From the NCBI RefSeq assembly GCF_023195915.1, contig NZ_JALPRP010000001.1, positions 806,001 through 870,000 on the forward strand: 64,000 bases of DNA, read 5' to 3'. The DNA comes from Methanoculleus sp. 7T (lineage in GTDB: Archaea; Halobacteriota; Methanomicrobia; Methanomicrobiales; Methanoculleaceae). The first letter of the stretch is position 1. Each line of letters begins with the position of its first letter. A model generated the notes under the pieces. That model made no database searches. It was not told the DNA's origin and saw nothing but the letters and a program-made list of their open reading frames with translations. Of this stretch, positions 23,840-25,948 are shown piece after piece. A program made the position numbers and the translations under genes.

Positions 23840-25054
23840 TTACCGGGCGCGGATCTCCCGCGCCACTCTCCGCCCGAGTTCGTAAGCCCGCGCAAGTTCG
23901 TCGGCATCAGGCCGGTAGTTCACATGGAACCCGCCGTCGATGACCTCGATCCCGGCCACCTTCAGGGCCTCCTCGGCCTGAGCGACCGCGCCGCCCATGC
24001 CGCCGTGCGACCCGAACGCGCACCCGATCTTCTTCGCCCCAAGGCGGCCCGGCCGGAGCCCGCGGAGGTAACTGAGGAACCCGGCCACCGTGGGGAGGAC
24101 CTCGTCCTGGAGCGTCGGCGACCCGATGAGGACGGCCTTCGAGTCGAGGACGTCAGTGACGACATCGCTCCGGTGCGTCCCTTCGTAGCGGCCGTCGCGG
24201 AGGAGGCAGACCCGGACGTCGGCGCCTTCGGCCATGACGCCTTCGGCGATCGCCTGCGCCATCATCGTGGTCGAGCCGTGCATGGTGTCGTAGACGATCG
24301 TGACCTTATCCTTCGAGACGCCCAGGCTCCAGTCGGTGTAGGCCTTGAGGATATCCCCGGCATACGACCGCCAGATGACGCCGTGGCTCGGCGCAATCAT
24401 CTTGATGTCGATGCCAAGTCTCCCGACTTCGTCGAGTTTCTTCAAGACCTTCGGCGCGAGCGGTATGATCAGGTTCGCAAAGAACTTCTGCGCGTGGGCA
24501 AGCGACTCGTCCTTTCCGAGCTGGTCGTCGAACCGGGCTGCGCTCGCGACGTGCTGCCCGAAAGCGTCGTTCGGGAAGAGAATGGCGTCCTCGGCAAGGT
24601 AGGTGAACATCGAGTCGGGCCAGTGGAGCATCGGGGCTTCGAGGAAGGTGAGCGTCTTCCCGCCGAGGTCGAGGGTATCGCCGGTCTTGACGACCCGGAT
24701 GTTCCAATTGGTGGTGTCGTAGTGGCGCGCAAGCCCGGCCTTCGCCCGCTCCGTACAGTAGATGGGGATGCCCGGCATCTTTCGCACGAGCGTGGGCAGA
24801 CAGCCGGAGTGGTCCATCTCGATGTGGTTCACGACGAGGTAGTCGATCTCATCCGGGTCGCAGACCGACCCCACTCGGCCGAGGACCTGTCCCTCGAACC
24901 CGGCGTAGGCGCTGTCGATGAGTGCGGTCTTCTCGCCTTGGACAAGGTAGGCGTTGTAGGTCGTTCCCGGGAGGGTGTAGCCGTGATACTCCCTCAGGTT
25001 CCAGTCGATTGCCCCGACCCAGTGGACGCCGGGGGCAAGTTTCGTAGCCATCAT
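23840..25054 (-). CDS. fprA: F420H2 oxidase, A-type flavoprotein (flavodiiron)
   Basis: The 404-residue protein has an N-terminal metallo-beta-lactamase-like diiron domain with VVNHIEMDHSGCLP (H-x-E-x-D-H) and later His ligands, and a C-terminal flavodoxin domain (VTIVYDTMHGSTTMMAQAIA). In methanogens this enzyme reduces O2 to water with electrons from F420H2, in the cytosol, as an oxygen defence. It is divergent from an MsvR-like redox regulator across an 84-nt gap with operator-like repeats. GAGGG about 10 nt before the ATG ATG pair supports the start at 25054. Confidence 0.93.
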   Translation of the reverse strand: MMATKLAPGVHWVGAIDWNLREYHGYTLPGTTYNAYLVQGEKTALIDSAYAGFEGQVLGRVGSVCDPDEIDYLVVNHIEMDHSGCLPTLVRKMPGIPIYCTERAKAGLARHYDTTNWNIRVVKTGDTLDLGGKTLTFLEAPMLHWPDSMFTYLAEDAILFPNDAFGQHVASAARFDDQLGKDESLAHAQKFFANLIIPLAPKVLKKLDEVGRLGIDIKMIAPSHGVIWRSYAGDILKAYTDWSLGVSKDKVTIVYDTMHGSTTMMAQAIAEGVMAEGADVRVCLLRDGRYEGTHRSDVVTDVLDSKAVLIGSPTLQDEVLPTVAGFLSYLRGLRPGRLGAKKIGCAFGSHGGMGGAVAQAEEALKVAGIEVIDGGFHVNYRPDADELARAYELGRRVAREIRAR

Positions 25055-25072
25055 TTCATATCCCTCACATCG

Positions 25073-25118
25073 TTCGACATTATACGAACGTTCTACTATA
25101 TCCGAACATTTGATATAT
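25073..25118. promoter_or_regulatory. Divergent fprA/msvR promoters with MsvR-type operators
   Basis: Two similar inverted repeats lie 18 nt apart: TTCG-N6-TACGAA (25073-25088, perfect in its TTCG/CGAA arms) and TTCT-N6-TCCGAA (25091-25106, imperfect). The perfect palindrome GAACGTTC at 25086-25093 links them. A TATA element (TGATATATCT, 25111-25120) serves msvR, and reverse-strand GATATAGTAG (25093-25102) suits fprA. As I recall, MsvR of Methanothermobacter binds TTCG...TACGAA repeats; the spacer there may differ. Confidence 0.6.
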
Positions 25119-25138
25119 CTCCCTTTCGATCTAACTCT

Positions 25139-25948
25139 ATGAAGAATGGGATGAGCGACGGCGAGGGAACTGGCCCGCTGAAGTCAAACCGGGAGATCGA
25201 CCTGTACTCGACGCCGGCCGGGGCGCGGGCGGTCGAAAATCCGGTGCGGCGTGCGATTCTTGCGGCGCTCCGCGAACGCGAGCACACGTTCGACGAGATT
25301 GTCACCCTCGCGGGCCGGGCGAAGTCGACGGTCTCGGTGCATCTCCAAGACCTCACGGCGGCGGGCGTGATCAGGTTCCGATCCGACCCGGGGGACGCCA
25401 GGAGAAAGATCTTCTTCCTCGCCGGCGACCTCGTGGGGAGCGTCTCTTCAGACGACCGGATAGCCGACGCCCTCGCCGCATACGCAGGCGTGTACCGGGC
25501 GGGATCGAGCGACCCCTTCGCGTTCTACAAGTTGACCTTCCGGACGATCAGAGTTGCGCTCATGCAGGAGGGGATCCTCCTTGACCCGCTCCTCACCCGA
25601 GCCGGCGAGCGGATAGGGGAGGAACTCTACCCGGCGGTTGCCGACCCGGAGACCGAGGCCTTCTGCACCAACATCGCCCGGTTCTGGGAGGACCACCGGC
25701 TCGGGCGGGTCGAGGTCGCCGGGACGGAGCCGTTGACACTCCTCGTCTACGACTGCTTCGAGTGCGCCGACCTGCCCGTAACCGGCCGGCCCGCGTGCGC
25801 GTTTGACTCCGGCATCCTCCGGGCGCTCTTCTCCCGCCACTACGGGCGGCCGACGGCGGCGGTCGAGACCAGGTGCTACTCGATGGGGTTCGACCACTGC
25901 CGGTTCGAGGTGGTGCCGGAGGGAAACGGCAGGGGTACTCCGAGGTGA
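25139..25948 (+). CDS. msvR: MsvR-like redox-sensing transcription regulator (HTH + V4R)
   Basis: The 269-residue protein has an ArsR-type winged helix (NPVRRAILAALREREHTFDE, TLAGRAKSTVSVHLQDL) and a C-terminal V4R domain with cysteines in VYDCFECADLPV, RPACAFDSG, ETRCYSMGFDHCRFEV. This domain order and the divergent flavodiiron partner are those of MsvR, a methanogen regulator that represses its own gene and the oxidase gene and responds to oxidation of its cysteines. ATG 25139 sits ~25 nt behind the TATA box without a ribosome site, so the mRNA may be leaderless; ATG 25151 is the alternative. Confidence 0.82.
   Translation: MKNGMSDGEGTGPLKSNREIDLYSTPAGARAVENPVRRAILAALREREHTFDEIVTLAGRAKSTVSVHLQDLTAAGVIRFRSDPGDARRKIFFLAGDLVGSVSSDDRIADALAAYAGVYRAGSSDPFAFYKLTFRTIRVALMQEGILLDPLLTRAGERIGEELYPAVADPETEAFCTNIARFWEDHRLGRVEVAGTEPLTLLVYDCFECADLPVTGRPACAFDSGILRALFSRHYGRPTAAVETRCYSMGFDHCRFEVVPEGNGRGTPR

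Follow-up and report, generated by a model that had tools for sequence, protein, structure and literature searches.

The locus comprises two divergently transcribed genes, fprA and msvR, and the short gap between them (Table 1). The fprA product matched F420H2 oxidases over its full length of 404 aa, the closest solved relatives being 6frm (1.7e-128) and 2ohh, and a search of it for a rubredoxin domain gave no Pfam match. It is probably an F420H2 oxidase, as judged from its sequence, and the gene appears to be a single-gene unit. MsvR scored 300 bits against the curated NCBIfam equivalog NF053755 (cut-off 220), with HTH_5 (PF01022, N-terminal) and V4R (PF02830, C-terminal) both above cut-off. 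Five cysteines, including three in V4R and a CX2C pair, were conserved in 32 of 32 aligned sequences. The V4R cysteines C220, C246 and C254 (spacing 26 and 8) correspond to C206, C232 and C240 of M. acetivorans MsvR (MaMsvR), a correspondence made by spacing, with MaMsvR itself outside the alignment.

Two repeats were present in the gap where the initial annotation had placed them, offset by 18 nt from start to start. This spacing had been described as nearly two helical turns, but 18 bp amounts to about 1.7 turns at 10.5 bp per turn. Site A fits the pattern TTCGN8CGAA, here called the core, and matches 10 of the 12 bases of the longer form TTCGTAN4TACGAA. Site B would supply the second box of an MsvR operator, 18 bp from site A and with an imperfect left half (TTCT). 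Both lie on the TATA and start side of fprA, as had been proposed: site A between the inferred fprA TATA and the start, site B over that TATA, which its left half, TTCTA, overlaps. The end of site B is 3 nt ahead of the inferred msvR TATA, and the msvR start codon stands 19 nt past the latter, a distance suggesting that the msvR mRNA would be nearly leaderless. The element CTTTCGATC, downstream of the inferred msvR TATA and ahead of the start codon, was almost invariant in the Methanoculleus alignment, but not in other families. Scans of the region for sigma-70 promoters and terminators found nothing, and such scans are inapplicable to archaeal promoters.

The surroundings of the sites are AT-rich (G+C 0.45 over 136 nt). 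When the gap was subjected to 20,000 dinucleotide shuffles, a lone core arose in 0.5% of them, and a core accompanied at 18 bp by a second site of the TTC[GT] type arose 0 times. The exact form TTCGN6TACGAA had one copy in the window, i.e., the whole 64-kb stretch of DNA that was analysed.

Table 1. Features of the fprA/msvR locus (positions in the window) and partial matches in another Methanoculleus genome.
Feature	Position	Strand	Description
fprA	23840-25054	minus	Flavodiiron protein (ODP beta-lactamase and flavodoxin); Pfam PF19583 and PF00258
Divergent gap	25055-25138		84 nt, flanked by the start positions of fprA (25054) and msvR (25139)
Site A, TTCGACATTATACGAA	25073-25088		TTCG-ACATTA-TACGAA; strong MsvR-type candidate operator; 18 nt 5' of fprA ATG
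Site B, TTCTACTATATCCGAA	25091-25106		TTCT-ACTATA-TCCGAA; weaker second candidate site
Inferred fprA TATA, GGATATAG	25096-25103	minus	Inside site B; basis: position and conservation
Inferred msvR TATA, TTGATATATC	25110-25119	plus	Basis: conserved alignment columns
CTTTCGATC	25123-25131		
msvR	25139-25948	plus	ArsR-type HTH and V4R redox regulator, 269 aa
Partial MsvR match	G026:C3:215446-215583		
Partial DUF1894 match	G026:C4:14661-14813		

Conservation of the sites at fprA and msvR

Conservation in orthologous gaps, on which the initial annotation had made its proposal depend, was found at both genes. The core was located within 140 nt upstream of fprA in 24 of 26 Methanoculleus genes, and a pattern search over 30 regions upstream of msvR in the order recovered two sites 18 bp apart in 24 of them (13/16 in Methanoculleus and 11/14 in other genera), representing three of the four sampled families. 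Reading 17 msvR loci by eye, we saw TTCG-N8-CGAAC-[AG]-TTCTA...TATCCGAACA-TTTGATATATC as a recurrent arrangement, with exceptions. In the aligned gap the half-sites were kept, while the spacer of site A was variable. Three genomes (G006, G008 and G013) have fprA and msvR separated, and each gene there carries an exact site of its own. In four loci where fprA does not directly adjoin msvR (L016, L017, L019 and L021), TTCTA was lost and TATCCGAACA retained; the genomes being alike, this may reflect a single event.

There is a modest chance that site B is no operator, its conserved bases being the fprA TATA and an upstream promoter element of msvR, with MsvR acting on site A only. Such an explanation would fit the position of site B on both inferred core promoters and the four loci without adjoining fprA. 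Against it, the 18-bp spacing is kept at most msvR genes as counted above, and elsewhere in the order, outside this family, site B often equals or beats site A as a motif match, e.g., TTCTATTGTTTACGAA. Methanothermobacter likewise has a further box, a direct repeat of its box 3, according to the portion of PMC3729527 available to us. The weaker second site of the initial annotation is thus upheld as a conserved element, yet it may fall short of a complete operator, because its left half coincides in part with the fprA TATA and disappears from loci in which fprA no longer adjoins msvR.

Further sites and the predicted regulon

In the 2.6-Mb genome TTCGN6TACGAA occurred exactly in four places only: 5' of fprA/msvR, 5' of a rubrerythrin gene (rbr), 5' of a bacteriohemerythrin gene (hr), and in the gap between a DUF1894 gene and a nitroreductase gene. 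The genome scan suggested in the initial annotation therefore yielded three places beyond fprA/msvR. The core was found in 28 places, versus 14 for the reversed pattern. The other 24 copies were mostly within long open reading frames, none was of the TTCGN6TACGAA form, and 19 of them had surroundings with G+C of at least 0.54; one copy, at C2:357616 (L316), lay in no frame of note. The same genome also holds three near-identical inverted repeats, TTCGACCGRGATCGAAC, within about 5 kb (G000:C2:279182, 282343 and 284192; L313, L314 and L315), which differ in form from the MsvR TACGAA type.

Across the 35 genomes of the genus, 52 of the 90 exact places were at target genes, distributed as 17 at fprA and msvR together, 5 at fprA, 3 at msvR, 12 at rbr, 4 at hr and 11 at DUF1894 with or without nitroreductase. 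At these genes the half-sites were constant and the spacer bases varied. The other exact places were mostly inside long frames, one of them found in six genomes at the same position of a coding sequence. The core stood within 140 nt upstream of 14 of 18 rubrerythrin orthologues (74% or more), 5 of 6 hemerythrin genes and 25 of 28 DUF1894 genes, in the last case at a fixed distance; it was present at 6 of 9 nitroreductase orthologues, where the site is common to DUF1894. The sole hemerythrin gene missing the core has two internal stops, and its genome has no MsvR match over the cut-off. Paralogues of rubrerythrin (0/11) and of nitroreductase (0/21) had no core, and the chance expectation from shuffles was at most 0.13 per gene set. 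The upstream counts leave out L082 and L089 (no match), L264 (truncated DUF1894), L265 (a 30% paralogue), and L292 and L293 (fprA fragments without the 5' end). In one genome an exact TTCGN6TACGAA lies 19 nt 5' of a short ArsR-type regulator gene (position 1299 of L158, G012:C8:799288), with no counterpart among the other unassigned loci compared.

Outside the genus, the core was found at none of 40 rubrerythrin relatives, 19 of which come from genomes with MsvR and 21 from genomes without it (L352, from G041, among the latter). Two of 20 DUF1894 genes carried the core, both in the next genus; in one genus of another family 6 of 7 had TTCT/TTCC-N8-CGAA, and the remaining 11 of the 20 had neither form. 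Given these counts, the regulon beyond fprA/msvR would be mainly a trait of Methanoculleus. DUF1894 itself gave a weak match only to a solved relative, MTH0776 (1z9v, E 0.0012), and no informative paper on it was found in the literature.

MsvR exceeded the cut-off in 28 of the 35 genus genomes and in 123 of the 199 genomes of the order sample. Within the genus its presence went together with that of the predicted targets. FprA was found in 27/28 MsvR-positive versus 0/7 MsvR-negative genomes (Fisher p 1e-6), DUF1894 (64% identity or more) in 27/28 versus 1/7 (p 3e-5), and orthologous rubrerythrin in 17/28 versus 1/7 (p 0.04), with relatedness of the genomes ignored in all three values. In G026, a genome 99% complete and without FprA, MsvR is reduced to a 46-residue match to its C-terminus and the DUF1894 match spans residues 51-101 only, as though the switch and a target had decayed together.

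The rbr, hr and DUF1894 sites might instead be read by a different ArsR-type repressor, which we consider improbable. Several weaker matches to the MsvR model per genome indicate that related regulators exist, and two incomplete drafts with no MsvR match retain one site each, at rubrerythrin in G014 (85%) and at DUF1894 in G025 (93%). The scattered sites, on the other hand, share their half-sites and the 8-bp length of the spacer with the msvR promoter, and the co-occurrence of MsvR with DUF1894 and FprA also argues for MsvR, as counts weakened by the relatedness of the genomes.

Proposed regulation and comparison with known MsvR systems

From the sites, gene identities, conservation and TATA-relative geometry observed here, we infer that the repeats are very probably operators for the adjoining MsvR, which would bind and repress when reduced and be relieved by oxidation, within a small oxygen-defence regulon including rbr, hr and DUF1894. 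In the reduced, anoxic cell one MsvR dimer would occupy site A, between TATA and start of fprA, and another would cover the fprA TATA at site B, beside the TATA of msvR, so that occupancy of both would hold down the two divergent promoters. Oxidation of the V4R cysteines would be expected to alter or release binding, upon which the oxygen-reducing enzyme and the regulator would be produced. The same site on the core promoters of rubrerythrin, bacteriohemerythrin and DUF1894, with or without nitroreductase, would extend this control to an oxygen-defence regulon. As read by eye, the site is downstream of the inferred TATA at rubrerythrin, beside it at DUF1894 and over it at hemerythrin. These positions favour repression relieved by oxidation, since a protein so placed would obstruct transcription factors or polymerase. 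Counting against the proposed regulation are the missing core at rubrerythrin relatives outside the genus, the sites kept in G025 and G014, and the failure of MaMsvR, described below, to bind comparable promoters in its own species.

An OxyR-like MsvR, bound in both states and activating once oxidised, has in our view little probability. In the part of PMC3729527 accessible to us, MthMsvR is on its promoter under both conditions, which counts against simple release, and an OxyR-like model is proposed. The same source reports, however, that reduced MthMsvR represses in vitro and that MaMsvR binds in the reduced state only, its binding being DTT-dependent; thioredoxin re-activates MsvR binding, as far as the accessible text of PMC7278568 goes. 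Moreover, the sites of fprA and of the three further units (rbr, hr and DUF1894) are placed on the inferred TATA or past it, a location at which an activator would be expected to block polymerase. Chance matches in AT-rich DNA, finally, were rejected as virtually without probability: lone copies do arise by chance, the 38 off-target exact places in the genus being near the 46 strand-wise matches of a control pattern, but the sites recur at the same genes with conserved position and sequence, and the shuffles and the single exact copy in the window point the same way.

The MsvR-type switch that had been proposed for this lineage is supported by the gene identities, the match to the published motif and the conservation in orthologous gaps, as evidence from sequence. 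It is known in kind; what appears to be new is the regulon predicted for Methanoculleus, in which DUF1894 recurs as a target. The pattern suggests one small common switch for a few oxygen-defence genes. We consider it fairly probable that Methanoculleus MsvR is a dedicated repressor of a scattered regulon comprising fprA, msvR, rubrerythrin, bacteriohemerythrin and DUF1894/nitroreductase, unlike its counterpart in M. acetivorans, and that DUF1894, being retained as a target in much of the genus, probably takes part in the oxygen response. DUF1894, bacteriohemerythrin and a nitroreductase would thereby be linked to oxygen defence in Methanoculleus, which are hydrogen-using methanogens. Only two characterised MsvR proteins were found in the accessible literature, and in the portions available they disagree on control of oxygen-defence genes. 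The conservation seen across Methanoculleus argues for a real regulon of this kind and supplies concrete promoters. A literature search with most subscription papers outside its reach gave no description of Methanoculleus MsvR sites.

The published motif, TTCGTAN4TACGAA with the relaxed form TTCGN7-9CGAA, is stated to lie 5' of all known msvR genes (Isom 2013, PMC3729527, as far as available). Site A matches it, and site B resembles the further box of Methanothermobacter. The msvR/fpaA-rlp-rub locus of Methanothermobacter thermautotrophicus (Karr 2010, via the accessible part of PMC3729527) has the same divergent gene pair, and its boxes overlap the start of fpaA and the BRE/TATA of msvR. As described in that part, fpaA is the first gene of an operon and the msvR leader is 73 nt, whereas in Methanoculleus fprA looks single, rubrerythrin stands apart as a unit that has a site to itself, and msvR looks nearly leaderless. 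The M. acetivorans system (Isom 2013, PMC3729527, as far as the text was available) is alike in the TTCGN7-9CGAA motif, the three V4R cysteines by spacing, the boxes beside the msvR BRE/TATA and the near-leaderless msvR. It differs in its reach: in the same available text, MaMsvR did not bind the motif copy at rpoK, the fpaA promoter or the oxidative-stress promoters of its own species, whereas in Methanoculleus the candidate sites are found at exactly such oxygen-defence genes.
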